From Coriobacteriia bacterium (GTDB lineage Bacteria > Actinomycetota > Coriobacteriia > Coriobacteriales > JAEZZM01): a DNA stretch of 36,063 nt. The stretch covers positions 1-36,063 of the forward strand of contig JAUNLE010000001.1 of assembly GCA_030532415.1 (NCBI GenBank), given 5' to 3'. A model generated the notes under the pieces. That model had not been told where the DNA came from, ran no database searches, and saw nothing but the letters and a program-made list of their open reading frames with translations. Positions 50 to 32,215 of this stretch are shown piece after piece. A program made the translations under genes and the position numbers. Within the stretch, counting starts at the first letter, position 1. Every line of letters starts with the position of its first letter.

Positions 50-922
50 TTAAATCAATTTATAAAATTTAATGAGGGATACATCTTCATCATTAATCGC
101 ATCCAGCACGCTACGCGTATACATCTTTATCGCATTCAAAACGGTTTGCTTTGTACCATCAATATGTACATGTAAATCAAGTAAAAGCCATAAAGACTGT
201 TTTTCTTCCTTACTGAATTTATTTGGCACCATTTCATACACCAGCCTGTCCACAATAATCCTATAGGGCTCCATTAAATCGCTGCCTAAATTAAAATGAT
301 TAAACATACTGCAATGAAAAATTCCAAGCTGAGTCAGGTATCCATTCGCTGTAATTTCTCGATTAAAAGCGGACAAAATCAAGCTGTAGCCATAATTAAG
401 TGCTGCATTTATTGCATTTTCTGCACTCCGTGTGAAGCCCCTACCAAAGAGAGCGTTGAAATATACCTTTGCAGCATGCCCCTCTCTATTGACCACATCC
501 GATGAAGCTGATTGACTTAAATAGGAACGCAAAAGCTCAGCCTCTTTTTCATGAGCGGTGTCCGACAAAAAATCCGCTTGAAGTCTAATTTTTTCACTTA
601 CGATTTCACGCCATACCGAATCTTTTATGTTTTGTTTCCATGCTGCCTGTGTTCTTATTTTTGCTGAACTATCGTGACTCCCACAATAAGCAGCTAATTC
701 TGCCATAGGATTACGCTGAGAATCACAAAAAATGACTTTGATTTTCTTAGAAATAAAGGCCTCAATTAAACAGCCAGTTATGGAAACCGCAGGATTTTCT
801 ATGATAACTATTGCGATTTCGTCTAGTAGTACGCGCTTTGTTTCCAAAGCGCGTACTACCATGTATCCCATTTTGCAGTCTAATTTGGCTTGTGATGAGA
901 CTACAACGGTTCGCCAACTCAT
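50..922 (-). CDS. cas1: CRISPR-associated endonuclease Cas1 (type II-A-like)
   Basis: Cas1 is the integrase that inserts new spacers into the CRISPR array together with Cas2. The 290-residue length is close to the usual 288-290 for type II-A. The N-terminus MSWRTVVVSSQAKL and the central NREGHAAKVYFNALFG match the type II-A family pattern. The expected metal-binding residues are present: Glu147 in NREGHA, His203 in GIFHCS, and Glu218 (with Asp215) in SDLMEPY. The ATG overlaps the cas9 stop codon (ATGA), so the two are translationally coupled, and cas2 follows after 4 nt. A perfect 15-bp inverted repeat lies inside the coding region near codons 22-32 (listed separately). Family assignment is firm. 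The subtype call (II-A rather than II-C) rests on resemblance, because csn2 is outside the window. Confidence 0.97.
   Translation of the reverse strand: MSWRTVVVSSQAKLDCKMGYMVVRALETKRVLLDEIAIVIIENPAVSITGCLIEAFISKKIKVIFCDSQRNPMAELAAYCGSHDSSAKIRTQAAWKQNIKDSVWREIVSEKIRLQADFLSDTAHEKEAELLRSYLSQSASSDVVNREGHAAKVYFNALFGRGFTRSAENAINAALNYGYSLILSAFNREITANGYLTQLGIFHCSMFNHFNLGSDLMEPYRIIVDRLVYEMVPNKFSKEEKQSLWLLLDLHVHIDGTKQTVLNAIKMYTRSVLDAINDEDVSLIKFYKLI
826..859 (-). repeat. Perfect 15-bp inverted repeat with 4-nt loop inside cas1
   Basis: Positions 826-840 (GTAGTACGCGCTTTG) and 845-859 (CAAAGCGCGTACTAC) are exact reverse complements separated by TTTC. In the cas1 mRNA the loop reads GAAA, a stable GNRA tetraloop. 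The stem encodes residues from about Val22 to Leu32 of Cas1 and begins some 60 nt after the start codon. Twelve to fifteen perfectly paired bases are not required by the protein sequence. Whether it affects ribosome passage or mRNA decay is unknown. Confidence 0.9.
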
Positions 923-3900
923 AGCAAGTCCAAGATGTTTTCAGATTTTTTCATCCATAAACCTGAAGGAGAAATATTCAGCACTCTTACATCACTATAG
1001 GATTTTTTCCAATTGGACACGGCACAGCTTAGCTTCGTTGCCGCAGAAAATTTAGACCCACCTATTAGACTCAAGTCGCAGCCAACAGAAAATCTTCCAA
1101 AGACCTGATGAATATTCAGAAGAACTCTCGCTTGATCAACTTCATGTAATTCAAGAAATTTTTGCTTGCCCTCAATCAGAATGGTAAGAGGATTATTAAT
1201 TCGTTTCTCATAAATCGTGTTTTTTAACTTTTCGCAATATAAATCATATAAATCTATATTTTTTTCTAAACACACCTTGTCATATTCTTGATCGAAAACA
1301 TAGTTTTTATTCTCGTCAACTTTTTGAACGAGCCTCTCTAATTTTTTAAGATAAAACTTCCAAAACTTATCAGATGAAAACTGCATAATAGGCTGGGCTA
1401 TGAGTCTTGTGCCTTTATTTGCATTACCAGTCAAACAAACCCTAAACCCATCAAATGAAAGTACCGTATTCACCTTCCACGGAGTCATTCCCAGAGGAAA
1501 ACTCACTTCATCTACCTTTTTGTTAAGAATTCGGGATAGTCGGTCATAAGTGTATTCAAGCGCAAAATCCCTGTCTTTTAGGAAACGCTCACCGTGGAGT
1601 AGCTCGACCGACATAATGTACAGGTCGGTTTTCTTTCCAGCTCTATATTTAACTGGCAGGAAGAACATGATACTTGGCTTGTTGTATCCACCATATTTTT
1701 CGGTAGGTAAATGTTTCTTTCTTGGGATAAGTCCTGGAGCTGCAGAAACAGGCATCTGATCAAATAAGCCACCCTTTTTCATGAAGGAATATTTCGTGAA
1801 CTTAGCAGTGTTTTTTTCGGAGATAGATTTAACCTTAGCCAACATCTCATCGCCATCCCATATGACCTTGCCGTCGGCTTCTACCGGACGAGTAAATACG
1901 GTTTTAGTTTTTATGCTGTAGTTTGACTTTAGATAGAAATTCTTCGTGAACTTCATGTTGTAAACATTGCCAACCACGATGTTTAAGTATGCATCCACTG
2001 CATGATGTAGGTCGTTGTATAACCTTGATTTTGGTAAGTCGAATTCTTGGCGGAATTCACTAGCTAAGTGCGCCTTACTGTAAACGATTTCCGTTTCTGG
2101 AAGGTATTCTTTCAAAAGCGTAGCAACTGCCTTGGTAGACTGAGAGGTTTCTACTATCTGACGGTTAATGAAGTGATGGCGTTCTTCATCGGTAAAAGGA
2201 GTGCTTCTAGTAAGTCTTTTGTACTTTTCGGTACTCATAAGCCCTGCATTTTTTAACATGCCCCAAAAAGCAGTCATCTTGCCACGAATCTGCCCATCAA
2301 TGGGATAAGTATTACTCTTCAAGCCATTTTCCTCAGAAAGAACGAGCACCTTGTTGTTGATAACGCTGTCATCTTTAACAAAAGATTGCGGATAAATATG
2401 ATCAATATCATAAATTTTTGAGCCAAGTTTTTCGAGAGCGATAGACTTTCCGCTGTAAGCAGATTTTCCTAGTTGCAAATAATATAGGTAAAGTTTCTCG
2501 CTTTGTAATCTGCTGTCAGCTGCCTCTCCCATAGCTTCAAGCTGCTGTTGTAGTAGTCGAACGTCTTCGCCTTCGCATTTTTTATAAAAATCTAAGAGCT
2601 GTTGCTTTCTTGTTTTTGTCTTCTTCCCTTTTAGATCTTTTCTTTCCGCCCTTGTCATCTCTATAAATATTTTTTGAGGAGCACCAAATGCCTTAGTTAC
2701 ATCTTTCACAACATCCAGGGTCCTAAAAACTGCACGCCTTGTTGCTGGGGACAAATACATTTCATCAAGGCGATCTTCAAGTTTTGCAGGATGCTCCTCG
2801 TAATAAGACTTTTTGTTTGATTCAATTTCCTGTGCAAACGTGAACTTATCGGAAAGCAGCTCCATTAAGTTTTTCTGCGTATTCCAAAGTGCAGAGATAA
2901 TGGTAAAAACCTCTCCCGTACTTTTATCAGTTCCTTCAAATTCATTTAGAAATCTTCTAGACAGGCGACCAAAATCCTGGATTTTTATTGAACAAATATA
3001 TTTTCCGTCAGCTTCACTCAAATGCGGGAATTCTTTTTGAATCCAATGCTTCAAGCGAGTTTTGTCTTCTGAAAAAGTTGAACGTTCAATAATTCTTTCA
3101 ACATCATCCTCGCTCAAAACACCAGTATCCATAAAACGTTTAAAAGCAATTTGTGGAGTGAGATTTGATTTAATATCCTCATCAATTCCCGAGATTAATT
3201 CTTCTTGGCCTTTTTCAATAAGACCTCTAGAAATTAGATATTCTTTCAACCTCTTTGGAGTAACCTTTTTGAACCTCAAAAATAAGTCATGGTAGATTTG
3301 TTGTTTTAACTCAACAGATATTCTTTCTCCATTTATTCTTAAATTATTTATTTCGTTGAGCACCATAAATTTATGGTAGAGCAAAGAATTTTTTGGAAGC
3401 ACCGGCTCTCCTGGAAGATAGGTGCAGGTGTTGGTCATCCTTCTAATAAATTCACGTTCACTGGCATCTAAATCTACCACCTCGTTAAAATTCCAAGGAT
3501 AAATTTTATCTGCTTTACGCACAATCCAAGCATGCTCAGAATTTTTATTGAGTGGACCAACAAAATAAGGAATCCTAAAAGAGAAAATTGACATAATCTT
3601 ATCTGAAACACTCAAGCCATTTTCGTCGCGCTCGGTAAGGAAGGGTAAGTAGCCTTCAGCGTTTTTCACTATGAGATTCAATTCATGCCAGAATAGCTGC
3701 TGAGGAACCACTCTATTGTTTGTGTCTTTTTGTTTTGGGAGAAAAATACGAAGTGCAAGACGGTCTTGTATGTCCTGAAGCGCTTTAAGATCTTGTTCAT
3801 TCATATTATTTTGGTCAATAAGCTTTAGCACTTCGGAAAGGTATTTTGAGAAGTCTTCCTTACTTGCTCCCTTGACCTTCTTTCCGTCTGTTTTGCGAAC

Positions 3901-4974
3901 ATAAGCACTATAGTTAGCTTTTTGTTCTTCCCTAAAAACCTCATTATATTTTCTACGAAGATTTCGTTTAATAATATCTTTAAGCAATTTCAAATCTTTT
4001 TGATGTTGATTAAATACGCCGATTTTTGCCTCGGAAATCGTTGTAAATTCCCCCATAATATCGGCAAGAATTGCCCAGTCAAAAACCTTACGCAATGCGG
4101 CAACAAGATCAAAATCATCTTCGATATTGGCAGCAATTTCATCCAGTTTTTCATCGTCATCCGACAAAGAGAACGAGCCCAATTCCGTATAATCATCTTT
4201 GCCAAAAAGATCTTTAATTTTAACCGTACTACCTGCAAGAAGCTTAATGACTAAGGTTTGGTTGAAAGGAAAGTCTTCTGTTATATCTTTTGAAACTTTT
4301 TCACTTCCAGTTAATGCTTTCGCTAATTCTTTAAATTTGTCTTGGAGTGCAATCTTCTTTTTTAATACCTCTCCGACTTCATTAAGATCAGCATCATCCC
4401 AAGGATATAAGTAGCCGTTATCTATAAAGAAATTGCGAAAATCCTGGTAAACCTGGTTGAAATCTCGCACCGAAGAAAGGTTGTCTTTGTCTATATTGCT
4501 CAAGAAATGACCGCGATGAGCAACTAACCAGGAACAGGCTAAGTACACCAAGCGCACATCATGGGGGCTCGGATCTTTCATCAGGTCGTCTATCAAGTGA
4601 TGAATTGTTGGATATTGTTTGTGATAATGTTTGTCAGTGTATGTTGGATCATTAAAAAGCGGGAATCTATCACCCGCCTCATCTCGATACAGGTCACTCA
4701 CCTGCAGTCGTTGAAAGAATTTTTGATCGACGTTCGCTATTTCCCGCGCAAATAATTCTTGAACAAGAGCAACCCTTTGTTTTCGTCTAGCTAAACGTCG
4801 CTTTGAGGTTCTAAAGACACGACGCGCTGCCTTTGATTCACCTTCATCAAAAACATGAGCACCCCAGGCGGACTCTCCATGAAATTTAAGTAAATTATAT
4901 TGGTCATCTGTAACGGCGTAACCCACAGAATTACTTCCAACGTCAAGGCCTAAATAATAATTCCCATCTTTCAT
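919..4974 (-). CDS. cas9: CRISPR RNA-guided endonuclease Cas9
   Basis: Cas9 is the dual-RNA-guided, two-nuclease effector that cleaves both strands of invading DNA next to a PAM. Its 1351 aa fit the long type II-A class. RuvC-I is at the N-terminus with Asp11 in LGLDVGSNSVG, followed by the Arg-rich bridge helix around residues 50-75. RuvC-II has Glu772 in FIEMTRAER. The HNH domain has Asp858-His859 in DIDHIYPQSF and Asn883. RuvC-III has His991 and Asp994 in HHAVDAY. All catalytic residues are present, so the enzyme should be active. The C-terminal PAM-interacting region follows (KYGGYNKP element, LSLIGGS near the end); the PAM cannot be read from it. The ATG has a GGAGGAG ribosome site. cas1 overlaps its stop. 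The tracrRNA is divergent and starts about 37 nt upstream of the ATG, so any cas9 transcript starting further upstream is antisense to tracrRNA. Confidence 0.98.
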   Translation of the reverse strand: MKDGNYYLGLDVGSNSVGYAVTDDQYNLLKFHGESAWGAHVFDEGESKAARRVFRTSKRRLARRKQRVALVQELFAREIANVDQKFFQRLQVSDLYRDEAGDRFPLFNDPTYTDKHYHKQYPTIHHLIDDLMKDPSPHDVRLVYLACSWLVAHRGHFLSNIDKDNLSSVRDFNQVYQDFRNFFIDNGYLYPWDDADLNEVGEVLKKKIALQDKFKELAKALTGSEKVSKDITEDFPFNQTLVIKLLAGSTVKIKDLFGKDDYTELGSFSLSDDDEKLDEIAANIEDDFDLVAALRKVFDWAILADIMGEFTTISEAKIGVFNQHQKDLKLLKDIIKRNLRRKYNEVFREEQKANYSAYVRKTDGKKVKGASKEDFSKYLSEVLKLIDQNNMNEQDLKALQDIQDRLALRIFLPKQKDTNNRVVPQQLFWHELNLIVKNAEGYLPFLTERDENGLSVSDKIMSIFSFRIPYFVGPLNKNSEHAWIVRKADKIYPWNFNEVVDLDASEREFIRRMTNTCTYLPGEPVLPKNSLLYHKFMVLNEINNLRINGERISVELKQQIYHDLFLRFKKVTPKRLKEYLISRGLIEKGQEELISGIDEDIKSNLTPQIAFKRFMDTGVLSEDDVERIIERSTFSEDKTRLKHWIQKEFPHLSEADGKYICSIKIQDFGRLSRRFLNEFEGTDKSTGEVFTIISALWNTQKNLMELLSDKFTFAQEIESNKKSYYEEHPAKLEDRLDEMYLSPATRRAVFRTLDVVKDVTKAFGAPQKIFIEMTRAERKDLKGKKTKTRKQQLLDFYKKCEGEDVRLLQQQLEAMGEAADSRLQSEKLYLYYLQLGKSAYSGKSIALEKLGSKIYDIDHIYPQSFVKDDSVINNKVLVLSEENGLKSNTYPIDGQIRGKMTAFWGMLKNAGLMSTEKYKRLTRSTPFTDEERHHFINRQIVETSQSTKAVATLLKEYLPETEIVYSKAHLASEFRQEFDLPKSRLYNDLHHAVDAYLNIVVGNVYNMKFTKNFYLKSNYSIKTKTVFTRPVEADGKVIWDGDEMLAKVKSISEKNTAKFTKYSFMKKGGLFDQMPVSAAPGLIPRKKHLPTEKYGGYNKPSIMFFLPVKYRAGKKTDLYIMSVELLHGERFLKDRDFALEYTYDRLSRILNKKVDEVSFPLGMTPWKVNTVLSFDGFRVCLTGNANKGTRLIAQPIMQFSSDKFWKFYLKKLERLVQKVDENKNYVFDQEYDKVCLEKNIDLYDLYCEKLKNTIYEKRINNPLTILIEGKQKFLELHEVDQARVLLNIHQVFGRFSVGCDLSLIGGSKFSAATKLSCAVSNWKKSYSDVRVLNISPSGLWMKKSENILDLL

Positions 4975-15371: not shown

Positions 15372-16274
15372 CTAGTCTTGTTCTTCATCCTTTAAGGTAA
15401 AAACGCCACTTAAATCGGGCATTTCTTGACCAAAAAGCTCTTCAATATCAATATCTTGGCTCAAAATCTTGTCCATGGTACCCATGAGTACAAACTCTTC
15501 AATTTCTGGTTTACTCATAATGGTAAGCTTTCCCTCGTCGTAGACCGGAAAAGCACTGCCACATTTTTCACAAATGTGAATCTTATGAGCAGCATCAGCA
15601 CTGTCATAAAGGTAATGCAGTTGATGTTGGTTGGTATTACCACACACCTCACACTTTACGCGACTATAGCGCCACTTAAAGTGACAGGTTGAACACCACA
15701 GCATCTTTGGTGATCCCTCAGATAAGCTACCCTCGGTTTGAATTGCAAGCGCAGCCTGGCTACCACACACCGGACAAAAGGTTGGGTTTAAGAAATCAAC
15801 TTCTTCAATTATGGCAGCTAACTTGTTATGAACAGCCTCACCAAAAACTGCAAGCGCTTGTGAGTACGCAAGGTAGAAACGATTTTTAATTATCTGTTCA
15901 TCAAGATTTTCATCAGACAATTCTAAATGTTCTGCAAGATCTTTAAGTGTGGCATCATCTTTGGTAAGTGCGTGTGAAAAGTCGACCTTATCAAAAGCAG
16001 ACCAATCAAGCTTTTCTGCATTATCATCAATTGCTTCAAAAAGCATACGAGTAGCATGTTTTAACCACTCGGAATCTACTACAGGCTCTTCATAAGCAAG
16101 AGCATAAGAGCCGTCACGCAAGACCTGCGCTACCGCGTCGGCATTTGGTTTCCAATCCAGCTCATACTCAAGCCCGGTGACCGCAACAAATAAGTCAATC
16201 AATAAATCAGAAAGCTCATCACCGAAACTTTCTCGATAATTATTGATTGCACGGTTTATATTTTTAATCTTCAT
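15372..16274 (-). CDS. fdhE: Formate dehydrogenase accessory protein FdhE
   Basis: FdhE is required for late maturation of respiratory formate dehydrogenases. The 300-aa chain has a helical N-terminal part and a C-terminal double rubredoxin-like zinc/iron region with four CxxC pairs: Cys167/170 (FCPVCG), Cys194/197 (WCSTCH), Cys208/211 (CEVCG) and Cys235/238 (CEKCG). The FKWRYSRVKCEVCG stretch is typical of the family. The ATG has an AGGA site. The gene sits 77 bp downstream of the cysteine-desulfurase-like gene and near fdnGHI, moeA and fdhD, all on the same strand, which supports the assignment. Confidence 0.92.
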   Translation of the reverse strand: MKIKNINRAINNYRESFGDELSDLLIDLFVAVTGLEYELDWKPNADAVAQVLRDGSYALAYEEPVVDSEWLKHATRMLFEAIDDNAEKLDWSAFDKVDFSHALTKDDATLKDLAEHLELSDENLDEQIIKNRFYLAYSQALAVFGEAVHNKLAAIIEEVDFLNPTFCPVCGSQAALAIQTEGSLSEGSPKMLWCSTCHFKWRYSRVKCEVCGNTNQHQLHYLYDSADAAHKIHICEKCGSAFPVYDEGKLTIMSKPEIEEFVLMGTMDKILSQDIDIEELFGQEMPDLSGVFTLKDEEQD

Positions 16275-16351: not shown

Positions 16352-17557
16352 CTAAATAATCGATTTCTGAGAAACTATTTCTTTAACCATACCCGGAAAA
16401 TCCTCAATCCACTCTCGCGGAGTATCAGCAGAAAATGAAGCGCGAACCGTTCCGGTAAACAAACTTCCGTAAACCTCATGAGCGGAAGGAGCACAGTGAA
16501 GACCCGAACGAACTGCCACATGATAATTTCTATCTAAAATCGAGGCAATATACTCTGAGGACACATCTTCAACCACAAAAGATACGACTGGCACACGTGG
16601 AGAACCAAGCTGCGGTCCTAAAATGTGAATACCGTCAATCTCTTGGAGTCCCGACATCATAAGGCGGCAATACTCATCTTCTACTTTGCGTCGTTCATGG
16701 ATGTGAGGGGCTATTAGACTTACAGCTTTAGCTAAACCTTCAATAGCAGGTAAATTTTGAGTTCCCACTTCATAGGCTTCTGGACGAGCATATAAAGGCT
16801 CGGTAGCCTCTTCAGACCCGCTGCCCGTACCACCTTCAAGCAGTGGTTCTACCTCGACTGAATCATCCATGATTGCAATACCTACACCAGTTGGACCTCT
16901 GAGACCCTTATGACCAGGACAAGCCCAGCCATCAACCTGCATCATATCGAAGTCAAAAGGAATGTGACCTGCGCTTTGAGCGCCATCTACGATAACTCGA
17001 GCACCATACTTATGCACAAGATCGGCCAGATCACCCACAGGTTGAATTGCACCCGACACATTCGATGCATGCTGGCAAACTACACTTGCACCTGGATGCT
17101 CTTTGAGTAAATCCATGAGCGCCGACAGCTTAACGACACCTTCTGCATTAATAGGTATTTTTATGAGCTCAACACCTTGCTCGCGAGCCATTCTATACAG
17201 CGGCCTCGTCACGGAATTATGCTCAAAGGGCGATAGCAAGACGCGCGTTCCAGGTTTTACGATGCCTTTGATAAGCATATTTAAAGCCTGAGTGCACCCT
17301 GGCTGAAAGGTCAGATTTTCTATTTCTGATACACCGAGTGCTTCAGCTACTATTCTTCTCGAACTCGAAAGAGCGCGAGATGCTTCAAGGGCTTTTTTGT
17401 GAGAAGAACGAGATGGCGTACCCGCACGCATCATGGAATGAAGAACTGTTTCAAGCACCTCGGGGGGTTTAGGCCAAGAGGTTGCAGCTTCATCGAGATA
17501 AATAAAATCTTGCTCTTCGGGAGCATAGTCAAAAGTAATAGTTTTGGAAGGATACAC
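16352..17557 (-). CDS. Cysteine desulfurase-like class V aminotransferase
   Basis: A PLP enzyme of the class V aminotransferase/cysteine desulfurase family. The PLP lysine is Lys217 in ACPGHKGLRGPTG, the cofactor-binding Asp-Gly-Ala-Gln is at 191-194, and the persulfide cysteine is Cys355 in RSGLHCAPSAH. Its sequence style fits the subfamily often found beside selenium- or molybdenum-enzyme genes rather than the general IscS. By context it may provide the persulfide that FdhD transfers to the formate dehydrogenase cofactor; this is inference. The start is GTG at 17557 with a strong AAGGAGG site 6 nt upstream. A terminator separates it from the fdn operon, and it has its own extended -10 promoter candidate. 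Full length (401 aa) and all key residues are present. Confidence 0.9.
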   Translation of the reverse strand: MYPSKTITFDYAPEEQDFIYLDEAATSWPKPPEVLETVLHSMMRAGTPSRSSHKKALEASRALSSSRRIVAEALGVSEIENLTFQPGCTQALNMLIKGIVKPGTRVLLSPFEHNSVTRPLYRMAREQGVELIKIPINAEGVVKLSALMDLLKEHPGASVVCQHASNVSGAIQPVGDLADLVHKYGARVIVDGAQSAGHIPFDFDMMQVDGWACPGHKGLRGPTGVGIAIMDDSVEVEPLLEGGTGSGSEEATEPLYARPEAYEVGTQNLPAIEGLAKAVSLIAPHIHERRKVEDEYCRLMMSGLQEIDGIHILGPQLGSPRVPVVSFVVEDVSSEYIASILDRNYHVAVRSGLHCAPSAHEVYGSLFTGTVRASFSADTPREWIEDFPGMVKEIVSQKSII

Positions 17558-17730: not shown

Positions 17731-18510
17731 TTACTTCGAGCTTTCCTCATGTTCAGGACCGAGTCCCTCTTTATAAATGTCAACAATCTTAAGCGCTTGG
17801 CCTGGTTGACTACCTTCTGGAACTTCAACAACATTAACTTCTGCGTTAAGTTCATCTTCTGCCCAGTGACCCCAGTGGTAAAGCGCATCAGATTCGCGAA
17901 CGTAACCGTTACCTAAAATCCATCCAGCTGCACGAGGGGTGTATGAAGGAATAATACCTGCACCCAAGTAGATGTGGATGAAGATTAAGATGCTGAAACC
18001 AAAGGTACATAAGTCGTGGCAGAACAAGAAGAATGAGAAAGCAGTTACACCAATAGCGTCAGGACCCATCCAGATTAAAATACCTGAAATCATAAATCCG
18101 AAGATAATGAGGTACATAGCAGCATCTGAAATACGTTGTCCAGATTTAGTGAAACCTTGCTTTGGTAGGTGAACATTCTTAGGGTTTGCCATGTATGGGA
18201 AGAACTTAGCCATAAATTCTTTGTCATCATCATCCCAAGCATGGAAGATGTGCTTAAAGGAATTGATTAAGTTCGAAGGACGGCAAATGAATGTCACAAC
18301 ATACACTGACATCCAAGAAACCGCGAAAATACGATGCCAAACTCCTGCTACTTGTAAACCTAATTTTGGAACAGAATGTCCAATTGGGTCGATAAATAAG
18401 ATCAAACCAGATATCAAAAGCAAGAAAGCAAATACGATATTTGACCAGTGCCAAATACGCTTGAAAATATCATGGCGAGCGATGTATCTAATCGTCTTTT
18501 CAGTAGCCAT
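17731..18510 (-). CDS. fdnI: Formate dehydrogenase cytochrome b subunit (gamma)
   Basis: The membrane anchor of a formate dehydrogenase-N-like complex; it carries two b hemes and passes electrons from the iron-sulfur subunit to menaquinone. Four hydrophobic helices are visible over residues 20-190. Candidate heme ligands His21 (RIWHWS), His59 (GVWHRIF), His165 (FCHDL) and His179 (IFIHIYLG) have nearly the same spacing as in E. coli FdnI. The C-terminal 70 residues are longer and acidic compared with that protein. The ATG shares one base with the stop of fdnH (TAATG), so translation is coupled. It is the last gene of the operon before the terminator. Confidence 0.93.
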   Translation of the reverse strand: MATEKTIRYIARHDIFKRIWHWSNIVFAFLLLISGLILFIDPIGHSVPKLGLQVAGVWHRIFAVSWMSVYVVTFICRPSNLINSFKHIFHAWDDDDKEFMAKFFPYMANPKNVHLPKQGFTKSGQRISDAAMYLIIFGFMISGILIWMGPDAIGVTAFSFFLFCHDLCTFGFSILIFIHIYLGAGIIPSYTPRAAGWILGNGYVRESDALYHWGHWAEDELNAEVNVVEVPEGSQPGQALKIVDIYKEGLGPEHEESSK

Positions 18511-19541
18511 TATTTATCACCTTCTCTTTTGTTTTGAGAAGCTAAGTTACGATTTGCCTTAATTGCCTGAGCTTGTTCCTCTCGAAGAGCTTCAAGGATT
18601 TCGTCTTTGTTTGCTTCGACAAATTCACCTTCACCGCGTGTTGGCATATCTTCAAAGCCGTCTTGGTTAACTTTTCCGATGAGGAATGTTTCATCAAGCG
18701 CCTTGTCATACTCAAGAGCATCGGTGCTTCTGAAGTAATGACGTGAGTTGATACGTGCTGCTGCAAGAAGTCCAACAGTAGCTACAACACCTACTGCAGT
18801 TGCAGGGCGTAAGAATTCTGAAGCTGTACGCCAGAATGGGATTGATGGGTTAATTGGTAAGCCAACTTTTTCAGCTCCGTAAGGTAGAACATCAATAACA
18901 TGAAGTCCACCGAGCTCGTTAATACCATAAGCAACCGCATCTGGGAATCTATCTTTGAGGAATTCAACACGAGCTTGTGCTTTTTCGACCATGACTTCTC
19001 TGTCGCCAAATTCTAAGGCGTTTGAAGTACATGAACCTACGCAAGCTGGAGTTCTTCCTTCCTCAAGACGATCGAGGCACATCCAACATTTTCTTTCAAT
19101 TCCATCGCGAACTGAGTGCTTTGGAATGTCGAAAGGACAACCAGTTTGGCAGTAGTGGCAGCCAATGCATACCTCAGGATCAATATCTACAAAGCCACCT
19201 GCAACATAGTGGCAAGCGCCCGTTGGGCATGCCATAACACAGCCAGCATTCGTACAGTGGTGGCATGCTTCGCGGCCAAATGCCCACTCTACTCCTAATG
19301 GACCACCATCGTACTCATCAAAAGTCATATGGAGGAAGGTTTCTGAGTCATTTTGTAATGGAGACTCATAGCTTCCAGTAAACGTATATTCATGTGAGAA
19401 CACAGGTGAAGCGTTTTGGTTCCATTGCTTACATGCAACTTGACAACCCTTACAGCCGGTGCACTTAGAAGCATCAAAGAGGATAGCCATTTCGTGGCGG
19501 TTATACTCTTCAGTCTTTAAAGGACGATCTTTATACTGCAT
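18510..19541 (-). CDS. fdnH: Formate dehydrogenase iron-sulfur subunit (beta)
   Basis: A ferredoxin-type subunit that relays electrons from the Mo/W catalytic subunit to the cytochrome. Four [4Fe-4S] cysteine groups are visible: Cys27/30/33/37 (CTGCKGCQVAC), CHHCTNAGCVMACP, CIGCHYCQTGCP and CWMCLDRLEEGRTPACVGSC. A single transmembrane helix spans about residues 244-262 and fixes the protein in the membrane, as in FdnH. The tail of about 80 residues after the helix is charged and cytoplasmic by analogy. It begins 3 nt after the fdnG stop and overlaps fdnI by one base. Confidence 0.95.
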   Translation of the reverse strand: MQYKDRPLKTEEYNRHEMAILFDASKCTGCKGCQVACKQWNQNASPVFSHEYTFTGSYESPLQNDSETFLHMTFDEYDGGPLGVEWAFGREACHHCTNAGCVMACPTGACHYVAGGFVDIDPEVCIGCHYCQTGCPFDIPKHSVRDGIERKCWMCLDRLEEGRTPACVGSCTSNALEFGDREVMVEKAQARVEFLKDRFPDAVAYGINELGGLHVIDVLPYGAEKVGLPINPSIPFWRTASEFLRPATAVGVVATVGLLAAARINSRHYFRSTDALEYDKALDETFLIGKVNQDGFEDMPTRGEGEFVEANKDEILEALREEQAQAIKANRNLASQNKREGDK

Positions 19542-19544
19542 TTA

Positions 19545-22500
19545 CTAGTTCACCGCCTTACGTACGTTTACTAAGAAGGCCTTAAATTCAGGAATCTTAG
19601 AACTTGGATCGAGGTAGGTAGGAGTCAACTCATTTGCTGATTCACCTTGAGCACACATTGATGCAAAGCCCCAGTTCCAAGGAACACCTACAACTTCATG
19701 AGGTCCGTCTCCGAGGTTATAAGCCTTCATTCTCTTGGTAATCATTGCAGGGATAACGATAGATCCACGTTTGTTGTAAACCTCTACGTCATCACCGTTA
19801 GAAATACCTAAGGACTCTGCAAGTGTCTCTGACATTTCAACGAATACCTTAGGCTGACATTCTGCAAGCCATGGTAAGTTTCTTGTCATAGCACCTGCTT
19901 GCCAGTGTTCTGACATACGATAGGTCGTACAAATAATTGGATACTCATCTGGTCCACCTAGTTGATCATCGCGATAGATAATCGTAAGTGGGCTGTTTTG
20001 TTGAGAAGAAAGCATGTTAGCAACTGGTGATTCAACAGGCTCGTAATGCTCTGGGAATACACCGTCTGCCATACCTGCCGTAAAGAATGCAGCTCTGTTC
20101 TCTTCATTCATCATGAAGGCTACAGTCTTTTCAGGCTCCATGTGAGATCCATCAGGGTTGGTGAATCCGAAGTCTGGAACGTCGTTTCTCAACCATTTCT
20201 TATTAGCCTTATCCCATGAGATTAATGGGAACTTAGGATTGTATGGATTACCATGTTTATCCATTGAAGCACGGTTATAGATGATGCGTCTGTTCAAAGG
20301 CCATACCCATGACCAGTTTACATATTGGTTAAGTCCACCTTGACCGCCGCCTTCTGAAACATCCTCGGCGATTTGACGACCAGTTGGTTGTTGGGTTGGG
20401 TCATCTTTAGCATCATTGTTGTTGTAGTAACCAGAGTAAATCCAGCAACCACAAGCAGTAGAACCATCGGCCTTAAGTGAACCAAAGCCTGCTAAGAGCT
20501 TACCGTCCTCAACGGTGTAACCATTGATACCTTGAGCAACTAAACGGCTGTCTGGGTGACCCTGACCGTTATAGTATGGCCAGCTAAGCTTCATGATTGG
20601 ATCATCGAATTTACCTGGCTCACGCTCGTAAGCTTTCTTAACTGCCTCATAAAGACCGGTGTAGAGCTCTACATCGTCAATAGCATTTCCTAATGGCTCA
20701 ACAGCCTTGTATCTCCACTGTGCCATACGACCAGAGTTGGTAACTGAACCCTGCTTCTCATAAGAAGAAGCCATTGGTAGTAAGAAAACTTCAGTTTGGA
20801 TGCTTGCAGGATCATTACCTGGACGCTTCCAGAATACCGAGGTCTCAGTCTCCCAAAGGTCGGCAACAACTATCATCTCAAGCTTCTTGAGTGCTTCGTT
20901 TACCATGTTTACGTTTGGTAAACCAACGATTGGGTTTTGACCACCAGCGATTAACATACGGATATCTTCTTCACCGTTGTAGAGATGTTCGAAGATGGTG
21001 ATGTATGAGTGATCTTTACCGTCTAGTTTTGGTAGATAGTCATAGCAGAAATCGTTTTCAAGGGTAGCATGCTCGCCATACATCTCTTTGAGCAGTGAGA
21101 TAACAAACTTAGGACGGTTTGTATAGTAACCGGCTGAAGCGGTTGTTGTCTCGAGATATTGACGAAGGGTGTTTTGCTTTCCAGCGGTTGGTAAGGTGCA
21201 GTAACCTGGTAATTGATCAAAGAGTAGACCAAAGTCGGTTGAACCTTGAACGTTTGACTCACCACGGAATGCGTTAACACCGCCACCGCACATACCGATG
21301 TTACCAAGTAAGAGTTGCAACATTGCAAGGCACTTGATCATTTGTGAACCGGTTGTGTGTTGGGTAAGACCCATTGCGTATAAGAAGGTTGCTACTTTAT
21401 CAGGTGCACCAGTGCTACCAACAATTTCAGCAATTTGTAAGAATTGCTCTTGAGGCATACCGCAGATATTTTCTACCATCTCTGGGGTATAACGCTCATA
21501 TTGTTTTGCCATGAGTTGGAATACGCATTGTGGATCTTGAAGTGTCTCATCCATCTTTGCTTTTTTGTGAACAGGGATGGTGAATTCTGGCACTCCTGGC
21601 TCAAGCGTATATTTGAATGCAGCAGGCACTTCTTGTTGAGTCTTCTCAGCAGCTTGCTCTGCAGCTTCTAAATCTGCAGTTGCGGTCTCGGGACGAGAAC
21701 CTGTTGCTGCAGCTTGTTGACGAAGTGCTGCAGGACCCTCTTCGCCTTCGTTTTCAAAGTCGTAGGTCCATGTGCTCTTATCATATTTGTGATTCTCTGG
21801 ATCATAACCACTAAAGAGACCATCTTCAAATTTGAAGTCTGGATTTACCAAGAATGGAGCGGTAGTCCAGTTAATGATGTAGTCCTCTTGATAGAGCTTG
21901 TTTTGAATTACATAGTTGATGAGTGCTCCGAAGAATACCGTGTTGGTACCTGAACGAAGTGGAGCATAAATATCAGCTACAGCAGCTGAACGGGTGAAAC
22001 GAGGGTCAACTACGATATAAGTTGCACCATGATTCACACGAGCCATGTCGATATGCTTAATTGACAATGGGTGATTTTCAGCGTTATTTACACCACAGGT
22101 AACGATTACATCGGAGTTCTCCAAATCGTTCCAGTGATTGGTCATAGCGCCACGACCAAAAATTTTGCCCAAACTGGACACAGTAGAGCTGTGTCATATA
22201 CGGGCTTGGTGCTCCATGTTGTACACACCAAGTGCACGACCGAGCTTCCAAGAAACATAGCATTCCTCGTTATCGAGGGCTGCTCCACCGAGCCATACAA
22301 AACCAGAGGCACGATTTACAGGATTTCCGTCTTCATCGGTGAGAACTAAGGTCTCTTCACGCACGTCGCGCATTTTTTTACCGATTTTTTCCCAAGCGAA
22401 ATCCCAGCTTACCGTTTGCCAGTGATCAGAGCCTGGAGCACGATACAAAACATCTGTAAGTCTAGCTGGATTTTGAATTAAAGCGCCGCTTGCAGGATCG

Positions 22501-22808
22501 ACGATATTTCTGATTGAAGAAATAGCAGCACCCTTAGAGCAGGTACCACCCCAGTTTAATGGACAATCAGGATTACCTTCGATGTTGATAAGCTCGCCAT
22601 TAGCCACAGAACAAATAGAGGAACAACCAACTGAACAATAAGGACAAATGGTTGTAGTCTCTGTTGCTCCTGCAAGTCTGAAATCTGGGTTGCTCTTCTC
22701 AGATCTCATACGAGCTTCAGCTTCGTTTGGTGCTACTGCACCTGCGAGAGCTGTGGCAGCGATACTTGCACCAGCCGCAGCAACAAAGCTGCGTCGCGTT
22801 AGCTTCAT
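19545..22808 (-). CDS. fdnG: Selenocysteine-containing formate dehydrogenase catalytic subunit (alpha), Tat-exported
   Basis: The catalytic subunit oxidises formate to CO2 at a bis-MGD molybdenum or tungsten centre. It must be read through an in-frame TGA at 22196-22194. Upstream is MEHQARI and downstream HSSTVSSLGKIFGRGAMTNHW, aligning with the ARV-U-HGPTV active site of E. coli FdnG, so residue 205 is selenocysteine. The mature product is one chain of 1087 aa, not two genes. The N-terminus (LTRRSFVAAAGASIAATALA) is a twin-arginine signal, so the site faces outside. The [4Fe-4S] cysteines are Cys55, 58, 62 and 90. Residues about 353-419 are an Ala/Glu/Gln-rich insertion absent from E. coli FdnG. 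The ATG is preceded by AAAGGAGCG. It is first gene of the fdnGHI operon, followed by fdnH after 3 nt. A functional sel system elsewhere in the genome is implied. Confidence 0.95.
22166..22196 (-). promoter_or_regulatory. Candidate bacterial SECIS element at the UGA codon of fdnG
   Basis: Two mutually exclusive hairpins start at or after the UGA. One is GACACAG-CTCTA-CTGTGTC (22195-22177), a perfect 7-bp stem that includes the GA of the UGA. The other is TGTCC-AGTTT-GGGCA (22180-22166), with a loop G about 20 nt after the UGA, within the usual bacterial SECIS window of roughly 16-37 nt. The second is the better SelB-binding candidate. Confidence 0.55.
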
Positions 22809-23200: not shown

Positions 23201-24469
23201 TTAGAAGATACCTCCGCTTTCTTCTACATCTAAAAGCCAGCAATCTACTAAGGTGTCTTTTTCAACATAGCCAACGCCTTCTGGAAGAATAATGAAGGCA
23301 TTTGCGTAATGAGCAGCAGTTAAGAGTGCAGAAGATTGTGAATAATCCAAATTCGCTACATACTCGCCCTGTTCGTCTTTAACAACGTTTCCACGCAAGA
23401 AATAGCGGCGTGGCTGTCTTTTCGACTGACCAACAGCTAACTTGGCCTTAACGATTGGACGAGCCAAATCTTTATACCCAAGCATTTTTCTAATAAGCGG
23501 ACGAAGGAAGGCCTCAAAGCCCACATAACATGAGGATGGATTTCCAGGAAGTCCGAATAATATAGCCTTACCAATATGTCCCATTGTTTGAGGGTTGCCA
23601 GGTCGCATATTAACCTTAGCGAATTCAACTTCTCCTAAGGTTTCAAGAGCGGGGCGAACAAAGTCGAAGTCTCCTACTGAAACACCGCCGCTTGTTACGA
23701 TTAAGTCGCACTCTTCAGATGCTTCTTTGAACACCTCAAGCGTTGCCTCATAAGTATCTTCAACCACAGGATAAATTATGACATCTGCGCCAGCCGACAT
23801 AGCTTGTGCAGCGTTTGCATATGAGTTTGAGTTTCTAATTTGTCCAGGTCCTGGTTTTTCATCTACATCCACAAGCTCACTACCAGTCGCAACAATACCT
23901 ACAACTGGGCGACGATATACCTTGACCTTGGTATTTCCCGTTGCTGCGAAAAGACCAATGGTAGCAACACCAATTTCTTCTCCTGCAGGAACTACTACTC
24001 CTCCTGCTTTTACCTCTTCGCCTGCATAACGAACATTAGCGCCCTTTTCTACTGGGGCCATAATTTGAACTGTTTGACCTGCTTGACCTAAATCGGTCTT
24101 ATACGCATTCGTAAATTCGAGCTTTACAACGCTGTCAGCGCCCTCAGGCATTGCTGCGCCCGTCATGATTCTGGCGGCCTGGCCCGACTTCACTGCTTGT
24201 ACAGGGGCGTCTCCTGCAGCAATAAGCTCAATTACATCTAAGGTAACGGGATTTTCTTCGCTTGCACCTTCAAGATCGCTCGCGATTACAGCAAATCCAT
24301 CCATAGCAGAATTATCGAAAGGTGCTACATCTATATCACTTAAGACATCTTCTGCTAAAACACGACCGAGCGAATCCATGAAGTCAATTTCTTCTGCTGG
24401 CATACGCTCGCCAAAACTTAAAACTTTTTCAAGAGCTTCTTCATATGAGAGCTGTTGTTCATCTGCCAT
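23201..24469 (-). CDS. moeA: Molybdopterin molybdenumtransferase MoeA
   Basis: MoeA inserts molybdate (or tungstate) into adenylated molybdopterin. The N-terminal domain carries DVAPFDNSAMDGFAV and IMTGAAMPEGADSVV. The central MoCF-binding domain has ATGSELVDVDEKPGPGQIRNSN and TSGGVSVGDFDFV, and GLPGNPSSCYVGFEAF leads into the C-terminal beta-barrel. The ATG at 24469 is chosen over an upstream ATG: it gives MADEQQLSYEEAL at the normal start of the fold, 422 aa, and has GAGAGG about 10 nt upstream. It starts 4 nt after the mobA-fdhD stop, so the two are one operon making the formate dehydrogenase cofactor. Several genomes encode two MoeA paralogues for Mo and W; which metal applies here cannot be told. 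Confidence 0.95.
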   Translation of the reverse strand: MADEQQLSYEEALEKVLSFGERMPAEEIDFMDSLGRVLAEDVLSDIDVAPFDNSAMDGFAVIASDLEGASEENPVTLDVIELIAAGDAPVQAVKSGQAARIMTGAAMPEGADSVVKLEFTNAYKTDLGQAGQTVQIMAPVEKGANVRYAGEEVKAGGVVVPAGEEIGVATIGLFAATGNTKVKVYRRPVVGIVATGSELVDVDEKPGPGQIRNSNSYANAAQAMSAGADVIIYPVVEDTYEATLEVFKEASEECDLIVTSGGVSVGDFDFVRPALETLGEVEFAKVNMRPGNPQTMGHIGKAILFGLPGNPSSCYVGFEAFLRPLIRKMLGYKDLARPIVKAKLAVGQSKRQPRRYFLRGNVVKDEQGEYVANLDYSQSSALLTAAHYANAFIILPEGVGYVEKDTLVDCWLLDVEESGGIF

Positions 24470-24473
24470 ATAT

Positions 24474-26123
24474 CTAATACCTCTCTCCACCCACAATTCT
24501 TTCTGGGTGAGTATATACTACAATTTGTGTAGCTTTAACATACCCCGCCAGCGTAATTCCAACCTCTTGCGCAATAGAAACAGATAAATCGGTGGCAGCT
24601 GATCGAGATGCTATGAGCGGTATGTGTTGACGAGCACTTTTAGCAGTGATTTCATATGACAGACGTCCCGTACACAACAAAATGGCCTTGCGCATATCTA
24701 GGCCTTTGCGCCATGCATTTCCTATAACTTTATCGACCGCGTTATGTCTTCCAACGTCTTCGCGTACAACTTTAAGCTCTCCGTCAATTACGATTGCACT
24801 GGAATGCGATCCTCCCGATGTTTTATAGCTCTCAGAGATATCTGTCATCTTCTTAATCCACTCGTGCAAATCACTTGGCTCGATGTAAAGTTCTTCTTTT
24901 ACGCGTTCAAACGCAGCAACGTCATCTATGCTCGAAAAGGTCACTCCTTTTCCACAACCACTTGTGACATAACGTTTTGATGTTTTATGAATAAGCTTGC
25001 TTGGAACTACCTCATCCGATTCAACATAGATAAGACCATGTTTTTTATCGATATCTACCGACTTAAGCAAGTTTCGATCTGAAAGCAAGCCTTCTGACAC
25101 TAAAAATCCAAGCGCCATATCATCAAGATGCGATTCGGTTGCTTGAACGGTAGAAATTTCAATATCGTTAAGATATATAGTGAAGGGCTTTTCCGTTGGC
25201 AAACGAGTAGAGCCCGGCTTTTGATGAAGCACTTTAATGGCATTACCTGCAAGCGATGGTTTTGGCTCTCGCAGGGAAGGTCTAAGCGATTCTTCGCCCG
25301 ATCCAAGTGCTACCTCTCCGCTCGTAACCTCGCCCGATGCCATTTCGGTTTCGATGTGGATGCGACCGAGCTGCTTCGATTCAAAAGCGCCTCCGTCTTT
25401 TCCTCGTTCCTTCTCCTTTGCCTTTTGAGAAGTCTTCTCCGAAGGCATAACGCAATCGCCGTTTTTAAGCTCGGTATCGATTTCTACTAATTGATCGGGA
25501 TGATTGATGTTTAAAAATGAGTCCTCATTCGGATCCAATTTCCTTATTTCTTCTTGAGGAATTGCATCAACGCGCACGTATTGGAAAAATGCGATAACGC
25601 GTCTGCGACCCGTATCTAGCACTCGTTGCACCCACTTCATAACAGCGGCGCGAGAATACAGGGCACACAAAGGCTCGTTTCCCCTGTCCGAAAGCGGAAT
25701 GACAACATCACTTTTCTTATCCAAGGCACGCTGATACATCATGTCAATGAGATTCGGGGCAAGCCAAGGCATGTCGACGGCGCGAACAAAAATCCAAGGA
25801 GTTTCAGCATGTTGAGCACCAGTCGAAAGACCGCCAAGTGGACCTTGGAAGGGAATGTCGTCTGACACTACTTTTACGTGATCTGGCCAACCCAATGCTT
25901 TTGTTGCTTCAAGCGCGTTGGTTACGATAACAATGCGTTTACAGTAAGGTTCAAGCAAGCGAACAGCTCGCTTAACCATAGGCTCGTCAGCAAGAGTCAC
26001 AAAAGACTTGTCAGTACCCATACGTCTTGAGCGCCCACCCGCAACAACAATACCTGTAATTTGCTCTCTCATCTCGCTTCTAAGAGCTTCGTTTTGTACT
26101 TTATCTGAATGAGTTTGATTCAT
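24474..26123 (-). CDS. MobA-FdhD fusion: MGD synthase joined to formate dehydrogenase sulfurtransferase
   Basis: This is one 549-aa chain with two enzymes. Residues about 22-210 are MobA, the guanylyltransferase that makes MGD from molybdopterin and GTP, with the loop VVAGGRSRRMGTDK and the DMPWL and NINHPDQL elements. Residues about 211-300 are a charged, low-complexity linker (SQKAKEKERGKDGG, GEVTSGEVALGSGEE). Residues about 300-549 are FdhD, which passes persulfide sulfur to the Mo/W cofactor of formate dehydrogenase: KPFTIYLNDIEI, TSGCGKGVTFSS, EDVGRHNAVDKVIG and TGRLSYEI. The sulfur-carrying loop has only one cysteine, Cys390, where E. coli FdhD has a CxxC pair. The start at 26123 has a weak ribosome site, and codon 18 (ATG) is an alternative. 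moeA follows after 4 nt. Confidence 0.92.
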   Translation of the reverse strand: MNQTHSDKVQNEALRSEMREQITGIVVAGGRSRRMGTDKSFVTLADEPMVKRAVRLLEPYCKRIVIVTNALEATKALGWPDHVKVVSDDIPFQGPLGGLSTGAQHAETPWIFVRAVDMPWLAPNLIDMMYQRALDKKSDVVIPLSDRGNEPLCALYSRAAVMKWVQRVLDTGRRRVIAFFQYVRVDAIPQEEIRKLDPNEDSFLNINHPDQLVEIDTELKNGDCVMPSEKTSQKAKEKERGKDGGAFESKQLGRIHIETEMASGEVTSGEVALGSGEESLRPSLREPKPSLAGNAIKVLHQKPGSTRLPTEKPFTIYLNDIEISTVQATESHLDDMALGFLVSEGLLSDRNLLKSVDIDKKHGLIYVESDEVVPSKLIHKTSKRYVTSGCGKGVTFSSIDDVAAFERVKEELYIEPSDLHEWIKKMTDISESYKTSGGSHSSAIVIDGELKVVREDVGRHNAVDKVIGNAWRKGLDMRKAILLCTGRLSYEITAKSARQHIPLIASRSAATDLSVSIAQEVGITLAGYVKATQIVVYTHPERIVGGERY

Positions 26124-29758: not shown

Positions 29759-32215
29759 ATGCTACTAGAAGACTGGCAATCCCATAGCGTTTGTGAAGAT
29801 CCACTCCTTATGAGACCAGGGATTTTTGGCTACCTGCTTCCCCTAGACGATCCAAGTAACGCTTGTTATATCTACCAAGAGATCGAGGGAGAAAAAACCA
29901 TAATCGCCTATGTTTCCAATGAGGGAGAAATTGGCGAATTCAAAGACACCGCATCATGTAAAATTTCTTCTTTTGAACCAGGCGCTACCATCTATATTAA
30001 GGATAGAAGGCGCGGGGGTTTCAATTTTGTCCATACGGTAGGCGTAATTTCGAGCAAGGCATTCCTCTTTCCCAATCCATACAAAGAGCATGCGACCATC
30101 TCAAAACTTTGTTTTGGAATTGACGATGCCTTATATACAATCTATCCACGCCAGGATATCGATTCTATATACGCCCTTTGTGTTTATATCTTCCTTATTT
30201 GGGGTTCTCGCGATATAAGTATCGCGCCCTTAGAATATGACGGAGACTTTGTCTTAGACTCCCCCATCCATAGCCTTGAAGATATCTTAGTGCCGCAAAA
30301 CGAAACTGAGCATACACCCGGCCTTGTCTCAATGGCACAAGAAATTCTTTCACTCAAACATCGAATTGATGCCGACACGAGTGAGGGAAAATATTCCTGG
30401 AAAGACTATGAGCCTTTTGAGATCAAGAAGAACGAGCTAACCGGACTTTTCAAGCTTGAAACAAAGGAGCGGGGTTTTGAAAACAGAGCGCTTGTCCAGC
30501 TCCAATCCGACTTAAATTCTGCTTTTATTGCCGATGCCTTACTGCAAAATTTTCCAAACGAGGAATTCAAAAACTCAAGCATTGCCTTCATTCTAGCTAA
30601 ACAAGCTGCCTTTAGACGTATCCACAAACGAGTTGAAATGCTTGTTAATTTAGATTTGGCATACGACATGCTGAGTCATAATCCAACAAAATATAAAAAA
30701 CAGCTCGAATATTTACAAGAGCTGAAAGATATTGATGAATACACGGGTCGCATTCGAATTGCGAAAATCTGTGAAAAGACGCTTGCCTCGACTAAGCTTG
30801 AAGACTTTACCTTTGCGCTTAATATGAGCAAGCGTGAGGCGGTTATAGAATTCGCACTTGCTCCAGCATCAAACATGCCACTTGTTTGCATTGACCCAAG
30901 AAAGCCGGGGCGCTTGCGCGCAACTCCAAAAGAGCTCCTTAATAAGACCTATATAGAATACTCCTATGGAATTGCATTTTTATATGCATATAAGGCTTTT
31001 CAAGCAGTTCCAAGTTTAGAGAAGCTTACGGTTAATCTAACGGGAATAGAAGCCTTGCTTGAAAATCCTGAATACAAGCTCTTGCCACCAGCCGCGCGTG
31101 CAGATGAATCTTCTTATAAATTAAGCATTGCCATTGATAGAAGCAGCCTATCTCAAGAAGACTATTTTGGATCTCCCCATGCTTTATCGGTAATACTTGC
31201 TCATGGACAGGCTATAGAAACTCGAGCAGCAAACGAATTGGGCGGCGATGGCTTTGGTATTACGCCCCTAAAAAGTGTAAATGAATTAAATGATGAGGAC
31301 CTTTACTTAGATCTCCCAGATAGATATAGGCATCTCGATCAATTAAGGAAGTATGAGCTTTCGGCAGAAGAGTCTGAAGCTTTTGCTATCTTGTCTGCCA
31401 CAGCCACAAGCGTTGCAGAAAACCTTGGACGCGATTTTGATAGCGATATAGAAGTCTTAAACACGCTGCTAAAAACAAAGAAAGCCTTCAGTAAAATACT
31501 TGCAAAATTCACTAACGATTCAGCTTCCTATATTTCCTTTGAAAGCCTGCGCTCATACGTCATATATCAATCCTTATATGATGTACCTGAAGGTTCTTTA
31601 GTTATCCCGAACGAGCTAAGCGACTTTTACTATGCCCTTGGAATAGCTGCTTCAAATATTGAGAACTATAACTTAGCTTGGGAATTTTTATCCATGACCT
31701 TAAGGCTCGGACCTGCAGAGGCATCAACCTACTTAGAACTTGCTTGGCTTTCTTATAAGATGAAGGATTATGAAACCATGAATCGCTACCTCGAAGAGGC
31801 AGCTAACTTCGTATGTCGAGATGACGACACCGCGCGTATCTATTTCTACCTTGGAATTCTTGCGCGAGAACAAAATAACCTCACGAAAGCAGCGCTCTTG
31901 TTTAAGCTTTCACAAAGATGGCTTGCAAGTGAAGTCGTAGCAGATGCGCTTGAAGAAATTGAGCAGCTAACCAATAAAACTGACGGCAGTATTAACGAGC
32001 AGAATATCGAATTTCTGTTTCACCACTACAATATTCCGAACTACCCCAAACATGAGGTGCTTGATACCTTGCACGAATATCTCAAGGTTTTTGTCAATGC
32101 ACGACGTTTTAATGCAGTTGAAGATATTGTTAACACCCTCATCCCCTTCGAACTGGAAGGGGATTTGAAGTATCTTATTGCAGGGCTGCCTGATTATCGA
32201 ATTTTATCGCTCTAA
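29759..32215 (+). CDS. Large TPR-like protein of unknown function
   Basis: I do not recognise this 818-aa protein. It has no signal peptide or membrane helix and should be cytoplasmic. Residues 1-150 look beta-rich (PGIFGYLLPLDD, IYIKDRRRGGFNFVHTVG). Residues 230-330 are charged helices. A mixed domain follows around 370-460 (EFALAPASNMPLVCIDPRKPGRL). Residues about 625-720 have the spacing of tetratricopeptide repeats: FYYALGIAASNIENYNLAWEFL, ASTYLELAWLSYKMKDYETM and ARIYFYLGILAREQNNLTKA. TPRs usually bind protein partners. The ATG is close behind GAGG (only 2 nt), a poor ribosome site, so a later start remains possible. Its stop overlaps by 4 bases the stop of the convergent polyferredoxin gene. 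Codon use is like the neighbours, so no recent transfer is suggested. Confidence 0.8.
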   Translation: MLLEDWQSHSVCEDPLLMRPGIFGYLLPLDDPSNACYIYQEIEGEKTIIAYVSNEGEIGEFKDTASCKISSFEPGATIYIKDRRRGGFNFVHTVGVISSKAFLFPNPYKEHATISKLCFGIDDALYTIYPRQDIDSIYALCVYIFLIWGSRDISIAPLEYDGDFVLDSPIHSLEDILVPQNETEHTPGLVSMAQEILSLKHRIDADTSEGKYSWKDYEPFEIKKNELTGLFKLETKERGFENRALVQLQSDLNSAFIADALLQNFPNEEFKNSSIAFILAKQAAFRRIHKRVEMLVNLDLAYDMLSHNPTKYKKQLEYLQELKDIDEYTGRIRIAKICEKTLASTKLEDFTFALNMSKREAVIEFALAPASNMPLVCIDPRKPGRLRATPKELLNKTYIEYSYGIAFLYAYKAFQAVPSLEKLTVNLTGIEALLENPEYKLLPPAARADESSYKLSIAIDRSSLSQEDYFGSPHALSVILAHGQAIETRAANELGGDGFGITPLKSVNELNDEDLYLDLPDRYRHLDQLRKYELSAEESEAFAILSATATSVAENLGRDFDSDIEVLNTLLKTKKAFSKILAKFTNDSASYISFESLRSYVIYQSLYDVPEGSLVIPNELSDFYYALGIAASNIENYNLAWEFLSMTLRLGPAEASTYLELAWLSYKMKDYETMNRYLEEAANFVCRDDDTARIYFYLGILAREQNNLTKAALLFKLSQRWLASEVVADALEEIEQLTNKTDGSINEQNIEFLFHHYNIPNYPKHEVLDTLHEYLKVFVNARRFNAVEDIVNTLIPFELEGDLKYLIAGLPDYRILSL

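Follow-up and report, generated by a model that had tools for sequence, protein, structure and literature searches.

Introduction

The best described counterparts of the locus considered here are the catalytic alpha subunits of formate dehydrogenase-N and -O (E. coli FdnG, 1kqf; 1h0h), the selenocysteine insertion sequence (SECIS) family SECIS_3 of Rfam (RF01989) and the SECIS of E. coli fdhF. According to a figure legend in PMC13188914, the bacterial SECIS consensus has a loop of 3-9 nt with a G within its first two positions, an upper stem of 4-16 bp, a distance of 16-37 nt between UGA and loop and a minimum free energy of -7.5 kcal/mol or below. A passage of Kotini et al. (2015; PMC4513850) on fdhF holds that the lower part of the SECIS has to be unwound in the tunnel of the 30S subunit. 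Here we describe fdnG, a gene with an in-frame UGA on a stretch of 36,063 nucleotides from a Coriobacteriia bacterium (assembly GCA_030532415.1, contig JAUNLE010000001.1, positions 1 to 36,063), hereafter the window. Like the known alpha subunits, its product combines the same domains with a selenocysteine (Sec) followed by His and a long alignment on both flanks. As judged from sequence, the UGA at codon 205 is almost certainly read as Sec, and the two pieces into which annotation divides the gene are one formate dehydrogenase, mainly because of homology, the Rfam match and the sel genes. We regard fdnG as an ordinary selenoprotein gene of known kind, with one unexplained RNA detail.

A formate dehydrogenase frame that spans a UGA

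The TGA at codon 205 (22196-22194) is the sole interruption of a frame of 1087 residues that occupies 22808 to 19545 of the minus strand. Translation with table 11 yields two open reading frames (ORFs), 22808-22194 (204 aa) and 22181-19545 (878 aa, GTG start), which is the split at 22194 that the initial annotation expected of automatic procedures. Against TIGR01553 (formate dehydrogenase-N alpha) the product of both parts reaches 1096.8 bits, above the curated cut-off of 814.2, and it holds PF04879, PF00384 and PF01568 above their cut-offs, that is, the 4Fe-4S and the molybdopterin/molybdenum-cofactor domains. It is homologous to formate dehydrogenase-N alpha on either side of the UGA. The nearest named match in a scan of a genome collection is 49% identical and makes the Coriobacteriia the probable class of the organism.

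Among known formate dehydrogenases, 1h0h was the one aligned residue by residue. It matches FdnG in a first block of residues 46-355 and a second of 417-1085, and codon 205 faces its residue X in the motif ARI-X-HSATV; FdnG itself reads ARI-U-HSSTV, the flanking residues that had been claimed. We take this X to be selenocysteine and 1h0h to be a tungsten/selenium enzyme. In contrast to 1h0h, FdnG has about 60 residues between the two aligned blocks (approximately 356-416), a segment rich in Ala, Glu and Gln. The N-terminus, MKLTRRSF, is of the twin-arginine type, the motif having been read by eye.

To learn which codons stand at this site, we compared 103 places aligned with residue 205, taken from the best 80 of 297 confirmed stretches of the genome-collection scan and from loci fetched for 30 of the matches of a 60-genome search. 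Three of them (L009, L102 and L133) were dropped as duplicates of the window or of L010, leaving 100 places, which are a sample and no census. The codon is TGA in 93 (87 distinct sequences) and Cys, TGC or TGT, in the remaining seven. A further search of 395 genomes of the order, with 30 loci fetched, gave TGA in 26, one of which is the window, and Cys in four; 21 of these places were new (18 TGA, three Cys), and the other nine, the window among them, repeat earlier places. The relatives from the 60 genomes and those listed from the 395-genome search belong to other families of the order. Over all places compared, Sec and Cys codons are the only ones at site 205, a mixture that is expected of a Sec site.

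The two ORFs of table 11 would also be obtained if fdnG were two separate genes, or if the frame had been broken by a nonsense mutation or a sequencing error. However, the GTG at 22181 has no evident ribosome-binding site ahead of it, whereas AAAGGAG precedes the ATG of fdnG. The UGA, moreover, falls exactly on the position at which homologues have Sec or Cys, and the genome holds the full Sec machinery described below. We therefore consider such a break in the gene exceedingly improbable, and a single selenoprotein with Sec at residue 205, as initially annotated, is favored by the homology on both flanks, the TGA and Cys codons of the homologues, the SECIS and the sel genes together.

Selenocysteine machinery and other UGA-containing genes of the genome

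The genome that holds the window comprises 1.41 Mb in 97 contigs and is 94% complete. The genes selD, selA and selB and that of tRNA-Sec are clustered in this order (C10:3420-8038); selA (564.7 bits), selB (385.3) and selD (376.8) all score above their cut-offs, and tRNA-Sec scores 69.1 bits with anticodon TCA. With selA, selB, selC and selD all in the genome, the organism has the trait of Sec decoding, and the absence of selB and tRNA-Sec, named earlier as the finding that would speak against a selenoprotein, is not what the genome presents.

The selD gene of this genome (L132 843-1955 (+), C10) has an in-frame TGA within a KAG-U-AAKWG motif, followed by a hairpin. The KAG-U position is presumably the active site of SelD, and selD is, from its sequence, likely to encode a selenoprotein itself. 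The ORF as listed holds another TGA upstream, so that its start is uncertain. A search for GrdB gave no match in the genome, but as none was obtained in control genomes either, this result is uninformative.

A second fdnG with a UGA is found on contig C48. It is 47% identical to fdnG, its 5' end is lost at the contig end, and its match to SECIS_3 (35.8 bits) is below the gathering score. It has His-Ala after residue 205, alone in this among the 100 rows. Directly before the SECIS, six uninterrupted base pairs (GCGCGU/ACGCGC) close a hairpin whose loop contains the UGA (L133 409-450 (+), C48). We considered such a UGA-in-loop hairpin as a common trait of the selenoprotein genes of this genome and rejected it: the second fdnG has one, selD has one weakly (z -1.9, with 86 of 3000 synonymous sequences equally strong) and fdnG has none.

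The SECIS hairpin

Numbering the U of the UGA as nt 1, nt 17-22 pair with nt 26-31 to form hairpin B, the apical SECIS hairpin, whose energy is -5.0 kcal/mol as 5 bp and -5.9 as 6 bp. Its GUU loop begins 20 nt past the UGA, a spacing of 19 nt as counted on the fold. The 3-nt loop, the 6 bp, the G in the loop and the spacing fit the bacterial consensus. The element matches SECIS_3 over the full length of the model at 48.7 bits (E = 1.6e-10 in a search of 251 bases, 2.1e-10 in the genome), and resembles this family in its position after the UGA, its apical stem and the GU in its loop. A covariance model made from 32 relatives, the window excluded, has 5 base pairs only and carries mostly coding conservation; with it the SECIS site was the best of four matches in 51 kb (69.5 bits), followed by the paralogue at 65.2 bits, which was in the training set, and by two matches at 14 and 11.2 bits.

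Pair counts on the named structure, which lean on the structure chosen, were used after a negative result with RNAalifold. In 93 aligned sequences the five-pair stem is paired in 87.8% of cells (81.9 in shuffles), 37 cells are changed on both sides (14.0 in shuffles) and the covariation score is 0.249 (0.144 in shuffles); each of these values was reached by none of 500 shuffles, a comparison that relatedness of the sequences can inflate. The SECIS measures show the same pattern in the set of 32 sequences without the window. We grade this covariation evidence, three measures out of five, as moderate. The third hairpin, downstream of the SECIS, shows no covariation.

It is highly probable, in our judgment, that fdnG encodes a Sec-containing respiratory formate dehydrogenase of the Fdh-N/Fdh-O type in a Sec-decoding bacterium, with UGA 205 decoded via SelB and the SECIS. 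On the basis of established biochemistry we propose that SelB, GTP and Sec-tRNA-Sec would decode the UGA, guided by the GUU-loop hairpin, that the molybdenum or tungsten bis-pyranopterin guanine dinucleotide cofactor would have Sec205 among its ligands, and that FdnG would be exported by the twin-arginine translocation pathway. Electrons would then pass from FdnG via FdnH and FdnI to quinone.

A rival fold over the UGA

The unexplained detail is a second hairpin, A, in which nt 2-8 pair with nt 14-20 (7 bp, -9.3 kcal/mol). Since nt 17-20 are common to hairpins A and B, the two are mutually exclusive. The initial annotation had indeed placed two competing hairpins with common bases at 22166-22196, a range that covers exactly these two. 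In a free RNA of 45 nt hairpin A prevails with a probability of 0.96, and with the upstream codons it extends to a fold of 39 nt (z -5.2 against dinucleotide shuffles) that occupies the two arms of the SECIS.

It had been suggested that, through these common bases, the hairpins could switch decoding between read-through and stop, and their mutual exclusion speaks for such a device. A conserved device of this kind finds no support among the relatives: all seven pairs of hairpin A are possible in one of the 93 sequences, the window, and six of the seven in one more; its stem is paired in 57.0% of cells against a shuffle mean of 58.9, with 500 of 500 shuffles at least as high. None of the five covariation measures of the rival stem exceeds the shuffles in these sequences, whereas the SECIS stem passes three. 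At the moment of decision, furthermore, the 5' arm of hairpin A would lie in the A site and the mRNA tunnel, where the lower SECIS unwinds according to the passage in PMC4513850. Hairpin A is not a conserved element and is probably an idiosyncrasy of this sequence, and we hold a conserved switch to be very unlikely.

The ribosome covers the mRNA to about 12 nt from the A site. Hairpin A cannot exist with the UGA in the A site, because its 5' arm starts inside the UGA, under the ribosome. When nt 1-12 were blocked, the predicted pairing of the SECIS was 0.81 and that of the rival 0. Folded in a context of -60 to +100, free mRNA has a predicted SECIS probability of 0.00, against 0.91-1.00 with the UGA in the A site; in a context of -90 to +100 the probability does not exceed 0.31 as long as the ribosome is two or more codons from the UGA (0.31 at three codons, 0.06 at two) and rises to 0.99 at one codon. 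From these foldings and the footprint we infer that hairpin A would form only in ribosome-free mRNA and that an arriving ribosome would melt its 5' arm, so that the SECIS could fold before the UGA is read. The order of events would resemble that of fdhF, for which the passage of PMC4513850 has the UGA-adjacent structure unwind in the 30S tunnel while the apical hairpin remains; unlike in fdhF as described there, the structure over the UGA of fdnG is predicted to exclude the apical stem in free mRNA.

The foldings raise the possibility that the extended fold of the codons flanking the UGA was selected in this lineage to mask the SECIS from SelB in resting mRNA, with no preloading of SelB, until an approaching ribosome exposes it, one codon ahead of decoding; ribosome traffic, or else the level of SelB or selenium, would in that case govern recoding. 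The strength of the fold agrees with this proposal. The stretch of 42 nt that begins three codons before the UGA has z -5.4 against synonymous codings, of which one in 3000 reached the energy of the extended fold. In a scan for excess structure over 6074 stretches of fifteen genes, with 100 random codings each, the UGA stretch ranks first of 1074 in fdnG and its counterpart first of 999 in the second fdnG, a ranking to which the SECIS itself can contribute. These two genes also have the lowest z of the 93 TGA rows (-6.2 and -5.1, the next being -2.5), and z is never under -1.7 in the other TGA rows of the 395-genome search.

Other results argue against selection of such a mask. The fold is absent from the relatives, in which the rival pairing stays below the shuffle mean; the fold of the second fdnG has another topology that leaves its SECIS free; and the selD stretch, at rank 30 of 350, lacks an excess of this kind. 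A free-mRNA SECIS probability below 0.1 occurs in 15 of the 93 rows, and in seven of the 93 it is below 0.1 and then at least 0.8 with the UGA in the A site, the window being included in both counts. These values were taken on each row's own hairpin, as a probability in fixed register fails for relatives with a shifted hairpin, and A-site values of single relatives are unreliable (L022, for example, scores 0.17). Elsewhere in the scan a stretch of orfD is more extreme (z -5.8), and stretches of orfB (-4.95), a distant part of fdnG2 (-4.8) and another part of fdnG (-4.7) are comparable. We thus regard masking by a selected fold as unlikely. Among the papers listed in searches of an open-licence library, none describes a rival hairpin that masks a bacterial SECIS in its title or the opening of its abstract.

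Returning to the decoding of UGA 205 as Sec through hairpin B, a number of observations weigh against it. The score of 48.7 bits is below the Rfam gathering score of 63, so that the element is not a formal member of RF01989 but only a SECIS of such kind; a default Rfam scan misses it for this reason, and a scan of the whole window at gathering scores reported nothing. The hairpin is weak: four of the 93 sequences, the window included, have one no stronger than this, and 76 of the 93 have one of -7.5 kcal/mol or below. Taken alone, at -5.9 kcal/mol, it does not reach the consensus limit, while nt 4-45 folded freely give -8.1; the legend of PMC13188914 does not specify which stretch is to be folded. 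Two covariation measures do not exceed the shuffles, namely pairs with change on both sides (2 versus 2.3) and further pair types (7 versus 7.5), and when the 3' partner was slid the three good measures dropped, whereas these two equalled or exceeded the SECIS values (up to 4 pairs and 8 types). RNAalifold predicted no consensus pairs on the 93 sequences. Prediction by folding is noisy, as relatives show: blocking does not raise the SECIS in them generally, the median predicted probability being 0.83 in free mRNA and 0.80 with the UGA in the A site. Finally, the rival fold, which overlaps the SECIS and is the stronger of the two, is too strong for outright dismissal as chance of codon choice.

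Gene neighbourhood

Features of the window are collected in Table 1. The beta and gamma partners differ from those of formate dehydrogenase-N in scoring under the NCBIfam cut-offs. The aminotransferase encoded in the fdn gene run scores 336.8 bits against TIGR01977 (cut-off 377) and 232.6 against the SclA model (cut-off 525), and its family suggests a possible donor of selenium or sulfur for SelD or FdhD. The MobA-FdhD fusion, a single ORF, has the moeA-like gene and the fdn genes as neighbours. Genes of Cas9 (1351 aa) and Cas1 occupy the left end of the window (50-4974, minus strand). An ORF of 818 aa at 29759-32215 on the plus strand has no Pfam match at E 1e-5; near its end it holds the stretch in which excess RNA structure is strongest among the fifteen scanned genes.

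Table 1. Features of fdnG, its UGA and the neighbouring genes, with positions in the window
Feature	Position	Strand	Basis
fdnG, formate dehydrogenase-N catalytic alpha subunit, 1087 aa with Sec205	19545..22808	-	TIGR01553, Pfam, 1h0h alignment
In-frame UGA, Sec205	22194..22196	-	Translation; alignment with 1h0h; TGA at 93 of the 100 places compared
SECIS apical hairpin (hairpin B), 6 bp, loop GUU	22166..22180	-	Folding, pair counts
Extent of match to Rfam SECIS_3 (RF01989)	22141..22199	-	48.7 bits, E 1.6e-10
Third hairpin, 9 bp, 3' of SECIS	22138..22159	-	Folding; covariation does not support
Rival hairpin A, GACACAG/CUGUGUC, loop CUCUA	22177..22195	-	-9.3 kcal/mol; 5' arm starts inside UGA
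Extended rival fold, GCCCG (22205-22201) with UGGGC (22171-22167) closing hairpin A	22167..22205	-	-19.7 kcal/mol
fdnH-like iron-sulphur beta subunit	18510..19541	-	PF13247 above cut-off; TIGR01582 198.7 bits, below cut-off 334.7
fdnI-like cytochrome b gamma subunit	17731..18510	-	PF01292 61.9 bits (cut-off 30.1); TIGR01583 32.4, below 115.85
Cysteine desulfurase/selenocysteine-lyase-like aminotransferase V	16352..17557	-	PF00266 above cut-off
FdhE-like accessory protein	15372..16274	-	TIGR01562 46.1 bits, below cut-off 187.65
MoeA-like molybdotransferase	23201..24496	-	TIGR00177 domain above cut-off; MoeA-type equivalog models 350-388 bits, below cut-offs
MobA-FdhD fusion, 549 aa	24474..26123	-	PF12804 at 24-178, PF02634 at 310-543, both above cut-off

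Implications

As two ORFs, a respiratory formate dehydrogenase of this genome is lost, and fdnG needs to be annotated as one selenoprotein gene. If the fold over the UGA does mask the SECIS, recoding would be governed by ribosome traffic and not by SelB waiting on the mRNA, and the hairpin that holds the UGA of the paralogue in its loop would be a second way of structuring a Sec codon. Should the masking fold matter, it would make testable whether loading of SelB on the SECIS has to precede the arrival of the ribosome or may happen in the last codon step.
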